From Deltaproteobacteria bacterium (GTDB lineage: Bacteria; Myxococcota; Myxococcia; Myxococcales; JAHFDP01), in assembly GCA_023248955.1 (NCBI GenBank), contig JAHFDP010000001.1, positions 1-64,000 on the forward strand: a stretch of 64,000 bases of DNA, written 5' to 3'. A model generated the notes under the pieces. It searched no databases, was not told the origin of the DNA, and saw only the letters and a list, made by a program, of their open reading frames with translations. Shown piece by piece: positions 21,189 to 31,544 of the stretch. The position numbers and the translations under genes are program-made. Numbering within the stretch: the first letter of the stretch is position 1; each line of letters begins with the position of its first letter.

Positions 21189-21429
21189 GAAGACAACCGT
21201 AGAGCTATCCAATGCGCTTCTCCAGGAGGCCAAGCGCGTCTCGAAGGCAACGGGCCTGACGCTACGTGCTCTCATGGAAGAGGGGCTAAGTGTCGCGCTG
21301 GGGCGCCACCGATCCCAGAAAAAATTCAAACTTCGCGATGCGTCAGTGACCGGTAAGGGGCTGAGGGTTGGAATGCAAGGACTCTCCTGGCAAGAGATCC
21401 GCGCGCTTTCCTACGGTGATCGCGAATGA
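21187..21429 (+). CDS. vapB: VapB-type antitoxin
   Basis: 80 residues (MKTTVELSNALLQEAKRVSKATGLTLRALM...). The N-terminus has the beta-strand and two-helix pattern of a ribbon-helix-helix DNA-binding domain; the C-terminal half (FKLRDASVTGKGLRV) would wrap the toxin. An ATG at 21175 is also in frame, but the RHH domain begins naturally at 21187. The gene overlaps the PIN toxin gene by 4 bases (ATGA), the usual VapBC arrangement. The palindromic half-sites around the start suggest autorepression. Confidence 0.8.
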   Translation: MKTTVELSNALLQEAKRVSKATGLTLRALMEEGLSVALGRHRSQKKFKLRDASVTGKGLRVGMQGLSWQEIRALSYGDRE

Positions 21430-21872
21430 TTGCGGTCGACAGCAACATCCTCGTTTACGCCCACCGGCGCGACGTTCCCGAGCACGCGGCCGCGGCACGC
21501 TGTCTCACCGAGCTGGCCGAGGGTCAGGAGCGGTGGGCCATCCCGTGGCCGTGTGTGTACGAATTTTTTTCGAAGACCACGCACCCGCGAATCTTCCATC
21601 CGCCCTCCACGCGCGCGCAGGCCCTTCTGCAACTCGAGGCCTGGTTCGCCTCGCCAAGCTTGGGCCTCATTGGAGAAACCGACCCGTTTTGGCCTGGGCT
21701 GAGCAAACTTGTGGAAGCCGGCCGGATCGCAGGCCCGATGGTTCACGACGCCCGCATCGCGGCGATCTGTTTGCATCATGGCGTCCGCGAGCTGTGGACG
21801 GCCGATCGGGACTTCGATCGGTTTCCGAACCTTCGGGTCAGAAATCCACTCGTCGACGACATCCGAAACTAG
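21426..21872 (+). CDS. vapC: VapC-type PIN-domain ribonuclease toxin
   Basis: 148 residues. PIN-domain acidic residues are all visible: Asp in MIAVDSNILVYAH, Glu in CVYEFFSKTT, Asp in MVHDARIAAICL and Asp in LWTADRDFDRFP. It should be a magnesium-dependent RNase, often acting on initiator tRNA or rRNA, neutralised by the product of the overlapping upstream gene. It is followed after 15 bp by the second copy of the structured repeat, whose first hairpin could also serve as its terminator. Confidence 0.87.
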   Translation: MIAVDSNILVYAHRRDVPEHAAAARCLTELAEGQERWAIPWPCVYEFFSKTTHPRIFHPPSTRAQALLQLEAWFASPSLGLIGETDPFWPGLSKLVEAGRIAGPMVHDARIAAICLHHGVRELWTADRDFDRFPNLRVRNPLVDDIRN

Positions 21873-22127: not shown

Positions 22128-23822
22128 GTGCTGAAAAAAGCCACCGCTGATCTCGCCCGCCTTCGCACCATCGCCCGCGTCATGGCTCGCCACGGCTTCG
22201 GCGAATGGATCGAACGCACGCGGCTCGGTGCGCTGGTCGGCGGCCGCCGCGGCTTGCCCAAACTGGCGCCCGAGGAGCAGCGCGTCTCCACCGCACGCCG
22301 CTTCCGCAACCTGCTCGTCGAGCTCGGCCCCACGTTCGTGAAGGTCGGACAAATCCTCTCCGCTCGACCTGACATTTTGCCAACCACGTTCACCGACGAG
22401 TTGGCCGGCCTGCAGGACGCCGTACCGCCGATTTCCGCCGCGGAGATGCGCGCGCAAATCGCCGCGGCCTTGGGCGCGCCGGCGGAGGAATTTTTCGCCA
22501 GCATCGACGACACGCCGCTGGCCAGCGCTTCGATCGCGCAAGTCCACCGCGCCGTCTTGAAAACCGGCGAGCGCGTGGTCATCAAAGTGCAACGGCCTGG
22601 CATCGCACCCACCATTCGCGCCGATCTCGATCTGCTGATCTACCTGGCGAAAATTCTCGAGCGCTCCGTTGCCGAAGTGGGCATCTACTCCGCTTCCGAA
22701 GTGGCCCGCGAATTCGAGCGCGCGCTGCTCTCCGAGCTGGACTTCACCAACGAAGCTAACAACCTGCGCGCCTTCGCCCGCGCGGCCGCCAAACGCGAAT
22801 TCATCGTGCTGCCCAAAGTGCACGACGCTCTCACGCGCAAGACGATCCTCACGATGGAAGAGCTCATCGGGATCAAGATCACTGACGTGCCGAAAGATTC
22901 GCCCGACTACGATCGCGCGCTGCTCGCCAGCCGCCTCGTCGAAGAGGGCTTCACCGAAGTTTTCGAGGACGGGCTTTTCCACGGCGATCCGCATCCGGGC
23001 AACATCCTGGTGCTGCCTGGCAACAAGCTGGGCCTGCTCGATCTCGGCTTGGTCGGGCGACTCTCCAAGTCGATGCAGGAGACGATCATCGTTCTGGTGA
23101 TGGCGATCGCGTTGCGCGACGCGGACACGCTGGCGCGACTCATCTACAAAGTCGGCGTCCCCGACGAGCGCATCAACCTTTCGCGTTTTCGCTCGGACAT
23201 TCACGAAGTGCTCGACCGCTACCTCGGGCTACAGCTCGCGGAGGTCGATTCGCCGATGCTTCTGCGCGACCTGCTCGACTTGGCCATGCGCTACCGCATC
23301 CGCGTGCCCAAAGAGTTCGCGCTGCTCAGCAAATCGTCGATCACGCTGGAAGGCATCCTGCGCCGCATCGCCCCGGAGATGGACGTTGCCGCCGCCGCGT
23401 TGCCACACTCCAAGCGATTGATGCTGGAGCGTTACAACCCGCGCTCGCTCTCGGGCGGTTTCTTCAAAATGCTGCTCACGCTGCAGGGGCTGGTGCAAGA
23501 CGTGCCCACGCAGGTCGCGCAGATCCTCATGGATCTCGAAGGCGGAAAATTTTCGGTGCGCATGATCGCACCGGAGCTCGCCTCCATCGATCGCCACATC
23601 AAAGCGCTTGGCGTGATCATCTTCATGGGGCTCATCGCCAGTGGGCTGATCATCGGATCGTTCACGCTGCTGGCGCACTATCCGTGGGAGTGGCGCGGGC
23701 TGCCCGTCCTGGCGCTCCTCGGACTCGCCAGCGCGGCGTGGCTCTTTGGCGCCGCCGTGACTTGGTACCTCTTCTCGGGGCGTCTTAAAAAAATCCACGT
23801 GCGGCGCTGGCTCAAAAAATGA
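22128..23822 (+). CDS. UbiB/ABC1/ADCK-family atypical kinase
   Basis: 564 residues. Family marks: the KxGQ motif in GPTFVKVGQILSARPDILP, the Ala-rich loop ASASIAQVHRAVL, the lysine in VVIKVQRPGI, LFHGDPHPGNILV and LLDLGLVG (the DFG-equivalent). Two transmembrane segments near the C-terminus (VIIFMGLIASGLIIGSFTLL and LPVLALLGLASAAWLFGAAV) anchor it in the inner membrane. UbiB-type proteins are ATPases needed for ubiquinone synthesis, and relatives affect lipid movement. Here no ubiquinone gene is near; the gene overlaps by 4 bases (ATGA at 23819) with an Mla-type transporter operon, which favours a lipid role. The GTG start has no obvious Shine-Dalgarno sequence. Confidence 0.85.
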   Translation: MLKKATADLARLRTIARVMARHGFGEWIERTRLGALVGGRRGLPKLAPEEQRVSTARRFRNLLVELGPTFVKVGQILSARPDILPTTFTDELAGLQDAVPPISAAEMRAQIAAALGAPAEEFFASIDDTPLASASIAQVHRAVLKTGERVVIKVQRPGIAPTIRADLDLLIYLAKILERSVAEVGIYSASEVAREFERALLSELDFTNEANNLRAFARAAAKREFIVLPKVHDALTRKTILTMEELIGIKITDVPKDSPDYDRALLASRLVEEGFTEVFEDGLFHGDPHPGNILVLPGNKLGLLDLGLVGRLSKSMQETIIVLVMAIALRDADTLARLIYKVGVPDERINLSRFRSDIHEVLDRYLGLQLAEVDSPMLLRDLLDLAMRYRIRVPKEFALLSKSSITLEGILRRIAPEMDVAAAALPHSKRLMLERYNPRSLSGGFFKMLLTLQGLVQDVPTQVAQILMDLEGGKFSVRMIAPELASIDRHIKALGVIIFMGLIASGLIIGSFTLLAHYPWEWRGLPVLALLGLASAAWLFGAAVTWYLFSGRLKKIHVRRWLKK

Positions 23823-24523
23823 TGGCGCTGGTGGACGTTCGTTTTCGATTCTCCGACGAAACCCCCGAAATCCTGCGTGGTGTTTCGTTGCGCGTCGAGC
23901 AGGGCGAAATCGTCGGGCTCGTCGGCGCGGCGGGTGCGGGAAAAAGCAGCGTCGTCAAAATTCTCTGCGGGCTGCGCCCACCCGAATCGGGCTCCGTTTT
24001 TCTGGGCGACCGCGATCTCGCACATCTCGCGCCCGCTGCGCTGCGCCGCGCCCAGAGCGGCTTTGGCGTGGCCTTTCAAAATCTCGCGCTCTTCGATCGG
24101 CTCACCATCGAGGACAACGTCGCGCTGCCGCTTCTGCGCCGAGGCATGCCAAACGCGGACGCGCTGAACGCTGCACGCAAACAACTCACCGCCGTGGGTC
24201 TCGCGGAGGCGTACACCAAATTGCCACGCGCACTCTCCGGAGGCATGCGTCGCCGCGCCGCGCTGGCCCGCGCCCTCATTGGTGATCCACCCGCTTGTCT
24301 TTTTGACGATCCCTTCACCGGACTCGATCCGGTGGCCTGCGCGCGCATCGGCCGGCTCATCGCCACGACGCGGGCGCGCGGCGCCGCCACGCTGGTCGCC
24401 TCCAGCGATCCGACCGCGCTCACGCCAATCTGCGATCGCATGCTTCTCCTGGAAAATGGCACCATCGTCTTCGACGGTCCCCCCGCTGCGTTTACCGCGC
24501 GTCCATTGAGTATCGCAGGATGA
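23819..24523 (+). CDS. MlaF-like ABC ATPase 1, degenerate Walker B and H-loop
   Basis: 234 residues, an ATP-binding subunit of the MCE/Mla lipid transporter type. Walker A is GAAGAGKSS (36-44), and the signature LSGGM at 139-143 is intact. Walker B reads ACLFDDPFTGLDP, so the catalytic Glu is replaced by Asp164. The switch-histidine position reads VASSD, with Ser196 where other members have His. By itself it should hydrolyse ATP poorly. ATPase 2 of the operon (26058-26795) has the opposite set of defects. The start overlaps the UbiB-like gene and the stop overlaps the first permease gene (ATGA at 24520). Confidence 0.85.
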   Translation: MMALVDVRFRFSDETPEILRGVSLRVEQGEIVGLVGAAGAGKSSVVKILCGLRPPESGSVFLGDRDLAHLAPAALRRAQSGFGVAFQNLALFDRLTIEDNVALPLLRRGMPNADALNAARKQLTAVGLAEAYTKLPRALSGGMRRRAALARALIGDPPACLFDDPFTGLDPVACARIGRLIATTRARGAATLVASSDPTALTPICDRMLLLENGTIVFDGPPAAFTARPLSIAG

Positions 24524-25281
24524 CGAGTATCCTCTACAGAATAGGCCGCGGTATCTTCAATATCTTTCGCGCCTTGGGCGCCTGGGCGCTGCTCACGCTG
24601 CGACTCCTTCGCTGCGCTTTCACCCTCGAGCGCACCGACCTGGTGCGCCGTCTCTTCGCCTTCGGCTCCGAATCCTTTCCGCTGGTCGCGGTTACCGCGC
24701 TTCTGGTCGGCGCCATCTTGGTGCTGCAAGCCAAGCTCTTCGTCGGCCGCTTCGGCGCGCAGACGTTGGTCGGCTGGATGATCGGCTACGGCGTGCTCCG
24801 CCAAGTCGGACCGGTCTTCGTCGCGCTCGTCTTTTCGGGCCGCTGCGGATCGCGCAACGCCGCGGAGCTGGCGTCGATGACCACGCGCGAACAGATCGCC
24901 GGCCTAGTTGCGGTGGGCGTCGATCCGCTCCCCGCCGTGGTCGCGCCGCGTGCAGCCGCGATGGTGATCGCACTCATCGCATTCACCGCCATCGGTGATG
25001 CGGTCGCCCTCGGCGGCGGTGCCATCGCGGCGCGCCTCCTCATGGGCATCGACTTCGACGTCTTTTGGCGCAGCCTGATCACCGCGTGCAAAATCGGCGA
25101 TCTCGCTTCCAACCTCACCAAGGCGCTGGTCTTCGGCGGCGCCGCGGCCACGCTCAGCGCGCAAGCGGGACTCGCGGCGCACGGCGGCGCGGCGGCGGTT
25201 GGGGAAGCGGCAACCCGGAGCGTGGTGCGCAGCGCGCTGGCCTTCGTGGCACTTGATCTTTTGTTGAGTCCTCTTTACTGA
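24520..25281 (+). CDS. MlaE-like permease 1
   Basis: 253 residues with about five hydrophobic segments and the MlaE/YrbE pattern: an amphipathic N-terminal helix, a long first membrane segment (PLVAVTALLVGAILVLQAKL), the conserved FSGRCGSRNAAELASMTTREQIAGL block equivalent to the ATPase-contacting loop, and a C-terminal hydrophobic pair. It is the inner-membrane channel part of an MCE lipid transporter. It differs clearly from permease 2 of the same operon, so a heterodimer is likely. Translationally coupled with ATPase 1. Confidence 0.85.
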   Translation: MTSILYRIGRGIFNIFRALGAWALLTLRLLRCAFTLERTDLVRRLFAFGSESFPLVAVTALLVGAILVLQAKLFVGRFGAQTLVGWMIGYGVLRQVGPVFVALVFSGRCGSRNAAELASMTTREQIAGLVAVGVDPLPAVVAPRAAAMVIALIAFTAIGDAVALGGGAIAARLLMGIDFDVFWRSLITACKIGDLASNLTKALVFGGAAATLSAQAGLAAHGGAAAVGEAATRSVVRSALAFVALDLLLSPLY

Positions 25282-25302
25282 CGCGCGCTCGCGAAAATAC
25301 AA

Positions 25303-26061
25303 ATGATCACGCTTGCAATACATCCAATTCGCGCCCTCGGCGGCGGCGCCCTGCTCTGCCTGCGCGCCTGGAAACGCGCCCTCCGTGGCCACTGTCCTCC
25401 CGGCGCGCTGCGCACGCAGACCGTCGAACTCACCCTCCGCTCGCTGCCACTCGTTTCCGTGTGTCTCTCCTTCATCGGCGCCGTAGTGGTGGTCGACATC
25501 GGCCGGCAGATTCAACCCATCGTCGGTAACCTCTCGCCGCTGGGACCCGAGGTGCTTCGTTTTTTGGTGCGCGAATTTGGACCGACCTTCACCGGCCTGG
25601 TCGTGGCCACACGCATCGGCGCGGGCATCGCCGCGGAACTCTCCGCGATGTCCGTCGCCGAGCAGATCGACGCGCTCCGCCTCTGCTCCGCCGATCCCGT
25701 CGCCGAACTGGTCGCACCGCGCGTGGTCGCTTCCTTCTTCGGCCTGCTCTTCCTCGCGGCCGCGGGAACGCTCATCTCCGCACTGGCCGGTTCCGCCGCT
25801 GCTGTCGTGGCCTTCCAAGCACGCGGGTCAGCATTCCTCGATCCGCAAATGCTCACCGGCGGCGATTTCGCGGTAGCTATCATGAAGTCAAGTCTCTACG
25901 GCCTCGCTATTCCCACAATCGCAGCAGCGGCCGGCCTCTCCGCGAGCGGCGGTGCTCCCGCGGTTGGACGCGCCACCACGGCGGGCGTGGTGGGATCGGT
26001 GATGGCGGTGATCGCGCTCGACTTGGCGGTTGGCGTGGCCGCGGCAGCGGTGGGCGCATGA
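25303..26061 (+). CDS. MlaE-like permease 2
   Basis: 252 residues. The MlaE block reads LVVATRIGAGIAAELSAMSVAEQIDALRLCSADPVAELVAPR, closer to canonical MlaE (the Gly-Ala-x-Ile-Ala-Ala-Glu-Leu stretch) than permease 1. Five or so membrane segments, including LVSVCLSFIGAVVVVDIG and VVASFFGLLFLAAAGTLISAL. A 21-bp gap follows permease 1 and the stop overlaps ATPase 2 (ATGA at 26058). Two MlaE-type genes in one operon point to a heterodimeric membrane core instead of the usual homodimer. Confidence 0.87.
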   Translation: MITLAIHPIRALGGGALLCLRAWKRALRGHCPPGALRTQTVELTLRSLPLVSVCLSFIGAVVVVDIGRQIQPIVGNLSPLGPEVLRFLVREFGPTFTGLVVATRIGAGIAAELSAMSVAEQIDALRLCSADPVAELVAPRVVASFFGLLFLAAAGTLISALAGSAAAVVAFQARGSAFLDPQMLTGGDFAVAIMKSSLYGLAIPTIAAAAGLSASGGAPAVGRATTAGVVGSVMAVIALDLAVGVAAAAVGA

Positions 26062-26795
26062 TCGAAATCGATGGCGTCTCGCTGGCGTTTGGCGATCGCC
26101 CAGTGTTGCGCGAAACGACACTCACTGTATTGCCAGGTCTCGCCACCTTCGTGGTCGGCGTGAGCGGCGCGGGAAAAAGTGTGCTGTCACGCTGTGCAGT
26201 CGGTTTGCAGGCACCGGATGCAGGCGCGGTGCGGCTCTTCGAAAAAGATCTCGCACAATGTCATCCGCGCGAATTGGCCGCGCTGCGCCGCCGCTGTCCG
26301 CTGGTGCTCCAAGGATCTGCACTACTCGACGATCTTTCCCTCGTGGAAAACGTCGCGCTAGCGCTGCGCTTTACCGGCACCACACCCGCGGCGCGCATCG
26401 AAAAAGCGATGGCGCTGCTCGATCGCGTCGGACTCCAAACGCAAGCGCACCTTCATCCGCACGACGTCGGCCCAGGCGTGGCCATGCGCACGGCCATCGC
26501 CCGCGCGCTGGCGCTCGAACCCGCGATGGTGGTCTTCGACGAACCGACCAGCGGCCTCGATCCCACCGCCGCGCGCCAGATCGATCGCCTCATCGCCGAG
26601 ACCGCGCGCGCCACGGGTGCGCTGGTCATCTCGCACGATCTCGATTCGATCTTCACCGTCGCGGACCGCATTGTGATGCTGCATGCGGGAAGCGTGCACG
26701 CCGAAGGAACGCCCGCCGAGATTCGCGCGCACGCGGATCCCATCGTGCGCCAATTCATCGAAGGCCGTGCGGATGGCCCGATTCCCGACTGGTAA
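26058..26795 (+). CDS. MlaF-like ABC ATPase 2, degenerate signature motif
   Basis: 245 residues. Walker A GVSGAGKS (34-41), Walker B MVVFDEPTSGLDP with the catalytic Glu162, and the H-loop VISHD with His193 are intact. The ABC signature, expected as LSGGM/Q, reads VGPGV at 137-141, with the Ser and first Gly lost. This is the exact complement of ATPase 1. In a heterodimer one composite site would be complete (Walker motifs of ATPase 2 with the signature of ATPase 1) and the other degenerate. The start overlaps permease 2. Confidence 0.85.
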   Translation: MIEIDGVSLAFGDRPVLRETTLTVLPGLATFVVGVSGAGKSVLSRCAVGLQAPDAGAVRLFEKDLAQCHPRELAALRRRCPLVLQGSALLDDLSLVENVALALRFTGTTPAARIEKAMALLDRVGLQTQAHLHPHDVGPGVAMRTAIARALALEPAMVVFDEPTSGLDPTAARQIDRLIAETARATGALVISHDLDSIFTVADRIVMLHAGSVHAEGTPAEIRAHADPIVRQFIEGRADGPIPDW

Positions 26796-26859: not shown

Positions 26860-27840
26860 ATGAGCGAACGCAAACTCGAGCTGGCTGTGGGCGGACTGCT
26901 CGTCGCCGCGCTCGTCGTGGTGGGCGCGCTGGCCGCCGCGTTGCTCCGCTTGGGGCCACATCACCCGCTCCATTTTTCGGTCAACTTCGCTTACGCCGGA
27001 GGCATTGCCGAGGGTGCGCCCGCGAAAATCGGCGGCGTGCGCGTGGGCCGTGTGGCGCAGGTGGAGTTCATCGCCGACGGACGCGACGTGGTAACCGGAA
27101 CCGCGCTACCGGTGCGACTCGACGTGGAGATCGATCAGAAAGCCGTGCCCGCCCTGCACACCGACGCGGAGTGCTTCGTCGGAACACAGGGTGCGCTCGG
27201 CGAACCCTATTTGGAGATCGGCCCCGGATCACTGGAAGCGCCGCCGCTCAAGGAGGGCGCGGCTCTGCGCGGGATCGATCCGCCGCGCACCGATCTCTTG
27301 TTGGCACGACTCTTCGTGGTTTTGGAGCGAATCGCCGGTGTGGTTTCTACCGATCGCGAATCGTTGCTCAAGCTGATGCGCTCGGGATCCGGCATCGTGG
27401 AGACGATGGATCAGGTGCTTCGCTCGCGCGAAGGAACGCTCGGCACCGCCATCGATGACGCCGGCGCGATGCTCTCCACCACGCGTCGTTCTCTGCCGGA
27501 AATTCTGGCGCGCACCGACAAGCTCCTCGCGCGGCTCGACACCAGCGCAGTCGGTGCGGAGGAATTCGCGCGTGCGCTCCCGGAGTTAACCGCGCATGCC
27601 AAAGCGGTGCTCACCAGACTCGACGCCGCGGGACTCGGAAAAGACGACGCCGACAAATTGCGCGCCACGCTCGACAAGGTGGAACGTGCGGCGGCAAGCG
27701 CGCACGTGACCCTGGCGCGAATAGAAAACGCCGAAGGGACGCTCGGAAGAATGGCGAAGGATCCGACGCTGTACGAGGACCTCCGCGCGCTGGCCAGCGA
27801 TCTGAAAGCGCACCCGTGGAAGTTTCTTTGGAAGAATTAA
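26860..27840 (+). CDS. MlaD-like MCE substrate-binding protein
   Basis: 326 residues. One N-terminal membrane anchor (LAVGGLLVAALVVVGALAAALL, residues 8-30), then an MCE domain (about 38-135; FSVNFAYAGGIAEGAPAKIGGVRVGRVAQVEF, GTQGALGEPYLEIGPG), then a helical C-terminal region of nearly 200 residues with many RLDA/LDKVE-type stretches. MCE rings sit on the periplasmic face of MlaE and handle phospholipids; the long helical tail could build a tube or needle as in PqiB/YebT-like proteins. The ATG at 26860 begins directly before the anchor. Last gene of the operon, 64 bp after ATPase 2. Confidence 0.87.
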   Translation: MSERKLELAVGGLLVAALVVVGALAAALLRLGPHHPLHFSVNFAYAGGIAEGAPAKIGGVRVGRVAQVEFIADGRDVVTGTALPVRLDVEIDQKAVPALHTDAECFVGTQGALGEPYLEIGPGSLEAPPLKEGAALRGIDPPRTDLLLARLFVVLERIAGVVSTDRESLLKLMRSGSGIVETMDQVLRSREGTLGTAIDDAGAMLSTTRRSLPEILARTDKLLARLDTSAVGAEEFARALPELTAHAKAVLTRLDAAGLGKDDADKLRATLDKVERAAASAHVTLARIENAEGTLGRMAKDPTLYEDLRALASDLKAHPWKFLWKN

Positions 27841-30994: not shown

Positions 30995-31013
30995 TGAGAT
31001 ACATTGTATCTCA
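30995..31013. promoter_or_regulatory. Candidate antitoxin operator
   Basis: TGAGATACATTGTATCTCA is a perfect palindrome with 8-bp arms and a 3-bp centre. It ends on the first base of the antitoxin start codon (31013), the usual position of a RelB/DinJ autorepression site. The 30860-30994 stretch upstream shows nothing else. Confidence 0.7.
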
Positions 31014-31276
31014 TGTCGACAACAACGATGGTTCACGTGCGATTGGACGAGCGTATCAAGGCGCGGGCCGAGAAGGCGCTGCAGTCGATGGGGCTGTCCG
31101 TCTCGGATGCTGTTCGTGTCTTGCTTACGCGCGTCGCCGCCGAGAAAGCGCTCCCCTTCGAGATCCGCGTGCCAAATGCAAAGACGGCTGCTGCCATGGA
31201 AGAAGCACGCCGTGGCGCGCTACGCTCGGCCAAAAACACGAAAGCACTTCTGGCCGATCTGAATGCGGACGATTGA
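31013..31276 (+). CDS. RelB/DinJ-family antitoxin
   Basis: 87 residues (MSTTTMVHVRLDERIKARAEKALQSMGLSVSDAVRVLLTRVAAEKALPFEIRVPN...). The ribbon-helix-helix N-terminus has the DinJ/RelB wording, with LSVSDAVRVLLTRVA and the PFEIRVPN strand. It binds its own operator and neutralises the toxin encoded downstream, overlapping it by 14 bases. The ATG at 31013 is chosen because a perfect palindrome ends there; the alternative TTG at 31004 lies inside the palindrome. Confidence 0.87.
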   Translation: MSTTTMVHVRLDERIKARAEKALQSMGLSVSDAVRVLLTRVAAEKALPFEIRVPNAKTAAAMEEARRGALRSAKNTKALLADLNADD

Positions 31277-31544
31277 ATACACCTCCGCCTTTCGGCGGGA
31301 TTTCAAGCGCGAGAAAAAAGGGCAGCACGGACGAAAGCTGGATGCGCTTCTCCAGGACATTGTCGCGCTTCTCGCGGAAGACAAGCCGATACCCGCAGCG
31401 AATCGCGATCATCTTCTCACCGGCGAGTGGAAAGATTTTCGGGATTGCCACCTGCGGCCCGACCTGGTGCTGATTTACCGAAAGCCAGACGCGAAAACGC
31501 TACAGCTCGTGCGCCTCGGATCGCACAGCGAGCTGTTTGGTTGA
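31263..31544 (+). CDS. yafQ: YafQ-family mRNA interferase toxin
   Basis: 93 residues of the RelE/ParE fold, YafQ branch. The catalytic histidines of YafQ have counterparts in RDHLLTGEWKDFRDCHLRPDLVLIYRK and VRLGSHSELFG, the latter including the final conserved His near residue 87 and Phe. It would cleave mRNA in the ribosome A site. Overlap with the antitoxin gene (31263-31276) couples their translation. Confidence 0.88.
   Translation: MRTIEYTSAFRRDFKREKKGQHGRKLDALLQDIVALLAEDKPIPAANRDHLLTGEWKDFRDCHLRPDLVLIYRKPDAKTLQLVRLGSHSELFG

Follow-up and report, generated by a model that had tools for sequence, protein, structure and literature searches.

An operon of the Myxococcota that combines two different MlaF-like ATPases, two MlaE-like permeases and a single MCE protein very probably encodes a heterotetrameric MCE (type VIII) ABC lipid transporter, built on an obligate heterodimer of the two ATPases that pairs a consensus ATP site with a degenerate one. 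The residues that set the two sites apart are read directly from the sequence, and the complex, the chemistry of its sites and the transport of lipid are inferred from it.

The Locus and Its Genes

The window, that is, the whole stretch of 64,000 nucleotides analyzed here, covers positions 1-64,000 of contig JAHFDP010000001.1 (assembly GCA_023248955.1, Deltaproteobacteria bacterium, Myxococcota). On its forward strand, between positions 23819 and 27840, lie ATPase 1, permease 1, permease 2, ATPase 2 and the MCE protein, in this order and all with open frames (Table 1). Four-base ATGA overlaps connect three consecutive genes, a UbiB gene, ATPase 1 and permease 1, and likewise permease 2 and ATPase 2. 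Pfam searches (ABC_tran twice, MlaE twice) bear out the proposal of the initial annotation, made from the letters of the DNA, that one operon holds two MlaF-like ATPases and two MlaE-like permeases. The genes were also placed correctly within 23819-26795, but the operon does not end there, as the MCE gene follows, and the UbiB gene overlaps the start of ATPase 1. No STAS gene is present in the operon. The same genome has a second MCE system on another contig (C34), consisting of MlaE, MlaF and MlaD, in which the MlaF is intact; the whole genome contains two MCE genes, one in the operon and one adjoining this canonical permease. Elsewhere in the window, a RelB antitoxin and YafQ toxin pair (31004-31544; PF04221, PF15738) and a PIN-domain protein (21426-21872; PF01850) were observed.

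Table 1. Coordinates of the operon, the adjoining UbiB gene and the diagnostic residues of the two ATPases (window positions).
Feature	Position	Strand	Evidence and remarks
UbiB/AarF-family atypical kinase (ABC1 domain)	22128..23822	+	PF03109, 232 bits
ATPase 1, MlaF-like	23819..24523	+	Pfam ABC_tran; signature intact, catalytic Glu->Asp, switch His->Ser
ATPase 1 signature LSGGM (139-143), intact	24233..24247	+	alignment; 43/43 clusters
ATPase 1 D164 at catalytic Glu position	24308..24310	+	alignment to own MlaF
ATPase 1 S196 at switch His position	24404..24406	+	alignment to own MlaF
Permease 1, MlaE-like	24520..25281	+	PF02405, 181 bits; 4-base overlap with ATPase 1
Permease 2, MlaE-like	25303..26061	+	PF02405, 145 bits; group distinct from permease 1 (permease tree)
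ATPase 2, MlaF-like	26058..26795	+	Pfam ABC_tran; 4-base overlap with permease 2; lacks a consensus signature but keeps Glu and His
ATPase 2 degenerate signature VGPGV (137-141)	26466..26480	+	alignment; first Gly absent from all 37 clusters
ATPase 2 catalytic Glu E162, intact	26541..26543	+	alignment; 37/37 clusters
ATPase 2 switch His H193, intact	26634..26636	+	alignment; 37/37 clusters
MCE (MlaD-like) protein	26860..27840	+	PF02470, 46 bits; single MCE domain between an N-terminal TM helix and a long helical C-terminal region

Reciprocal Changes in the Two ATPases

The motifs were aligned against the intact canonical MlaF of the same genome. In this alignment ATPase 1 has FDDP (D164) and VASSD (S196) at the places of the catalytic glutamate and the switch histidine, with LSGGM (139-143), Walker A and the Q-loop intact; ATPase 2 has FDEP (E162) and ISHD (H193), and its signature reads VGPGV (137-141). 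The initial annotation had named the same residues (Asp164 for Glu and Ser196 for His beside an intact LSGGM in ATPase 1, and VGPGV replacing LSGGM beside an intact Glu and His in ATPase 2), and the alignment upholds them together with their numbering. Solved MlaF chains match ATPase 2 end to end in phmmer searches, GPGV lying beneath SGGM. ATPase 2 is clearly MlaF-like; ATPase 1 alone is too divergent, its best database matches not being MlaF, but in a tree that includes six other ABC ATPases it falls with ATPase 2 and canonical MlaF and not with those six. A misalignment of the motifs is ruled out by the alignments with the genome's own MlaF and with the solved chains, and a sequencing or assembly error by the conservation of the pattern across many independent genomes.

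ABC dimers bind each ATP at their interface, where one subunit contributes the Walker A and B motifs, the glutamate and the histidine, and its partner the signature. On paper, a homodimer of the window's ATPase 1 would lack glutamate and histidine at both sites and a homodimer of its ATPase 2 would be without a signature at either, and the pair of ATPase 1 with ATPase 2 would have one complete composite site and one that is wholly degenerate. The marks of an asymmetric ABC protein, namely two different nucleotide-binding domains (NBDs), reciprocal loss and one complete site, are met as far as sequence alone can tell, and the heterodimer with exactly one complete and one degenerate site, as put forward in the initial annotation, is supported by these residues and by their conservation, the complex itself being an inference.

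Conservation Across the Myxococcota

Clustering at 80% identity gave 43 clusters of ATPase 1 and 37 of ATPase 2. The Walker A lysine and LSGG are kept in all 43 clusters of ATPase 1, and 42 of these have lost the glutamate, the histidine or both. The glutamate position is occupied by D in 32 clusters, E in 10 and G in one, and the histidine position by a residue other than histidine in 39/43 (P, A, N, T, S or G). Histidine is retained in four clusters, three of which come from genomes G168, G070 and G086 (L096, L117 and L116, respectively); glutamate and histidine are retained together in a single cluster, L089 of genome G164. The Walker A lysine, glutamate and histidine of ATPase 2 are each present in 37/37 clusters, and the first glycine of its signature is lost in every one (P in 24, A in nine, others in four). 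In canonical MlaF proteins of the same order, none of the three places is altered (29/29).

Whether the four substitutions are conserved in related two-permease operons had been proposed as a test, and dozens of divergent orthologues now show that they are, with canonical MlaF of the same order unchanged. Restored residues had been named as the signs that would refute the asymmetry. An LSGG restored in ATPase 2 occurs in none of the 37 clusters; in ATPase 1 the glutamate (10/43) or the histidine (4/43) does occur, but the two together only in L089.

Tandem MlaE pairs occur in approximately 23 of 60 genomes of the order, and the same gene set was recovered in most of those loci. A phylum-wide search with permease 2 and a search of named genomes found the system in Myxococcus, Corallococcus, Pyxidicoccus, Archangium, many uncultivated genera and other classes; in the phylum-wide search it was missing from several families and genera. 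A Myxococcus-type operon is also present in BNCN01000004.1 (L135), a record titled Comamonas sp. KCTC 72670, and this title looks mislabelled. In two Archangium-like loci (L110 and L116), about 3.4 kb separates permease 1 from permease 2, which leaves ATPase 1 with permease 1 on one side and permease 2 with ATPase 2 and the MCE protein on the other.

Phylogeny and Probable Order of the Losses

In the full tree, ATPase 1, ATPase 2, canonical MlaF and the outgroup ABC ATPases sort into their groups with the minimum number of changes, and ATPase 1 forms one clade (90/71). After removal of the motif columns, ATPase 2 (99/92) and canonical MlaF (97/95) each form a clade, and ATPase 1 holds together in only 60% of bootstraps, so that a single origin of ATPase 1 is likely but not firm. 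The motif-free tree requires one change for the loss of the signature, three for the loss of the histidine and five for the loss of the glutamate, from which it may be inferred that ATPase 2 probably lost its signature once and early, and ATPase 1 its catalytic residues stepwise, via different substitutions. All 20 canonical MlaF rows and the six other ABC ATPases in this tree are intact; with one signature-loss change and 26 intact rows, the reciprocal pattern is, on these alignments, far above chance. The two permeases fall into distinct groups in a quick tree. The EQxDAL coupling-helix motif has been lost from permease 1 in many Myxococcales and is kept by most permease 2 sequences. The divergence of the subunits is correlated, a correlation which also reflects their shared species history.

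Broken-Up Operons and the Inferred Pairing of the ATPases

The strongest test of the pairing is provided by the genomes in which the operon is broken up, where both halves persist in nearly every case. In three gut genomes (G009, G015 and G020) the permeases have no adjacent ATPases, and both ATPases are found elsewhere with their reciprocal changes kept; in four others (G007, G090, G093 and G070) ATPase 2 lies away from the permeases, and these genomes, too, contain both ATPases. Seven genomes of other classes have permease 1, permease 2 and ATPase 2 together without an adjacent ATPase 1, and in six of these (G069, G187, G189, G190, G193 and G194) an unlinked relative of ATPase 1 is present, with an intact LSGGM or ISGGM and with Asn or Thr in place of the switch histidine. 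In the seventh, G191, ATPase 2 and ordinary MlaF-type ATPases are present and no ATPase 1 was found in the genome. These deep operons looked like a counter-example, in the shape of an ancestral form with one ATPase, which is ruled out by the ATPase 2 signature, degenerate there too, and further by the unlinked, His-less ATPase 1 in six of the seven genomes.

When an ATPase-1 profile was run against 18 genomes (G191 and 17 in which the phylum-wide search had not detected the system), the top matches were intact MlaF-type ATPases with two exceptions. Each of these, L254 (G107) and L255 (G115), is a lone MlaF-like ATPase with LSGGM intact, Asp in place of the glutamate and Pro in place of the histidine; it scores with canonical MlaF, has no adjoining permease and is possibly a second, separate degenerate MlaF.

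The substitutions might also be seen as neutral drift, with ATP still hydrolysed at both sites. Asp can partly substitute for the catalytic glutamate and some ABC proteins function without the switch histidine, and the wide range of residues at the histidine position, the ATPase 1 clusters that have kept the glutamate and the one genome that has kept both would agree with such a loss of constraint. Drift should, however, affect both sites, yet the scored residues vary at one composite site only, and the other, made up of the Walker A lysine, glutamate and histidine of ATPase 2 and the LSGG of ATPase 1, is invariant in every cluster; we consider this explanation unlikely. It appears quite unlikely, too, that ATPase 2 pairs with canonical MlaF, ATPase 1 then being a paralogue in decay or a regulator, even if the gene content of G191 would fit such a pairing and ATPase 1 is linked to UbiB instead of the permeases in several lineages. 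The invariance of LSGG and the Walker A lysine in ATPase 1 is not what decay looks like, ATPase 1 lies within the permease operon in most members, and canonical MlaF has no matching change.

As each ATPase gene of the window adjoins one permease gene, the operon could also be read as two independent homodimeric transporters, one made of ATPase 1 and permease 1 and the other of ATPase 2 and permease 2. This is very unlikely, since most ATPase 1 homodimers would lack glutamate and/or histidine at both sites and ATPase 2 homodimers would have LSGG at neither. Moreover, the operon has a single MCE gene, the only other one of the genome being beside the canonical permease, and in the deep lineages both permeases are next to ATPase 2 alone with ATPase 1 elsewhere. 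The preferred reading, a heterodimer of ATPase 1 and ATPase 2, is inferred only from the joint retention of both ATPases, without structure or biochemistry, and neither a homodimer of one subunit nor a pairing with the genome's canonical MlaF has been excluded experimentally.

Proposed Architecture and Lipid Path

In the proposed transporter, permease 1 and permease 2 would lie in the inner membrane, with the MCE protein forming a ring over them and ATPase 1 and ATPase 2 beneath. The complete site would be formed by Walker A/B, Glu162 and His193 of ATPase 2 and closed by the LSGGM of ATPase 1, and the degenerate site by Walker A/B of ATPase 1, without glutamate and histidine, opposite the VGPGV of ATPase 2. 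This latter site would probably bind ATP with poor or no hydrolysis and keep the dimer partly engaged, and the consensus site would carry out one hydrolysis per cycle.

The features expected of an MCE (type VIII) system, an MlaE-family permease, an MCE-domain protein encoded with it and an ATPase that belongs to the MlaF clade, are all found. An AlphaFold model of the MCE protein, computed from an 18-sequence alignment (L097 left out), is confident for the TM helix and the MCE domain (pLDDT ~90 in the latter) and of low confidence for the C-terminal helical part; its Foldseek matches are Mce1 chains and MlaD. No match to MlaA or MlaC was detected in the genome at E 0.001, a threshold at which the E. 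coli controls were detected. From this lack of a match, together with the long helical region of the MCE protein, a conduit-like lipid path is inferred, though not shown: lipid would probably move along the MCE conduit and not via a soluble carrier.

Linkage to a UbiB-Family Gene

Apart from the UbiB gene, the window's genome has no strong ABC1 match. In the window, as in four other families of the order and several uncultivated Myxococcaceae genera, ATPase 1 is immediately preceded by an ABC1-domain gene in the same orientation. In other classes it is found at most 33 bases upstream of ATPase 1 (G070, G190 and G193) or with one predicted gene in between (G189 and G194). The linkage, found at window positions 22128-23822 and at L033, L035, L117, L257, L259, L260 and L261, persists even where ATPase 1 and the permeases lie far apart. 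No UbiB gene is present within ~3.5 kb upstream in the Myxococcus and Corallococcus loci, and the Archangium stretches are mostly too short to tell. The gene between UbiB and the unlinked ATPase 1 of L257 (3938-4675) encodes a predicted TPR protein, possibly a lipoprotein, and L259 also has a gene in this place.

The likeness to the UbiB family (UbiB, Coq8, Cqd1/Cqd2) consists in the ABC1-domain gene, which is here linked to ATPase 1. The yeast UbiB proteins Cqd1 and Cqd2 affect the distribution of coenzyme Q (PMC8346625). No description of a link between a UbiB protein and an MCE transporter was found in the open-access literature. It is possible, but doubtful, that UbiB, both ATPases, both permeases and the MCE protein constitute one lipid-trafficking system of the Myxococcota, in which the UbiB protein would either handle an isoprenoid lipid embedded in the membrane (for example a quinone or carrier lipid) or regulate ATPase 1, with the transporter moving that lipid between membranes; their joint function is a hypothesis. 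The linkage offers a testable lead on the role of a bacterial UbiB-family protein and on the substrate of the transporter.

Comparison With Known Transporters and Significance

MlaFEDB, the type VIII ABC transporter of E. coli, P. aeruginosa and A. baumannii, has MlaF-like ATPases, MlaE-like permeases and an MlaD-like MCE protein in common with the system described here. In its structure MlaF and MlaE are each present in two identical copies with near two-fold symmetry (PMC7790496), in agreement with the earlier statement that the known MlaF is a homodimer. The present operon, in contrast, has two different ATPases and two permeases and lacks a STAS gene; with two genes of each kind and no MlaA or MlaC match in the genome, it was not accepted as a canonical Mla system. 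Mycobacterial Mce1 (YrbE1A/B, MceG, Mce1A-F) is similar in having two different permeases, a heterodimer of the MlaE type that works with an MceG homodimer (PMC9882608), and the MCE protein here aligns with Mce1 chains. However, six different MCE proteins accompany the MceG homodimer there, whereas one MCE gene accompanies two different ATPases here, and a mycobacterial Mce system (YrbE A/B, six MCE genes and MceG) was rejected on these grounds.

One consensus and one degenerate site are also found in TM287/288, BmrCD, TAP, MRP1 and CFTR. NBD1 of CFTR lacks both the glutamate and the histidine and its NBD2 has LSHGH, the same arrangement as in ATPase 1 and ATPase 2. The degenerate site of TM287/288 combines a Walker B Asp with a deviating signature, and the nucleotide bound there keeps the NBDs in contact and prevents their full separation, hydrolysis taking place at the consensus site (PMC5216877). 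Unlike the present system, all these proteins have exporter or channel folds, which are not of the MlaE type, and no MCE ring; in the tree the asymmetry arose inside the MlaF family and is therefore independent of theirs.

Neither MCE systems in Myxococcota nor a degenerate MlaF were found described in the open-access literature, and within the same limits no MCE transporter with such asymmetry came to light, as the initial annotation had maintained. A pattern known from CFTR-type and multidrug transporters thus appears, judging from sequence alone and with its range followed within this phylum only, in an MCE transporter, for which no description was found. The MCE structures that were checked (MlaFEDB and Mce1) use two identical ATPases. 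If the reading is true, the design of CFTR, TAP and TM287 would have originated independently in a lipid transporter, and the purpose of a degenerate site would become testable in a family unrelated to the exporters, with the system present in cultivable Myxococcus and Corallococcus.
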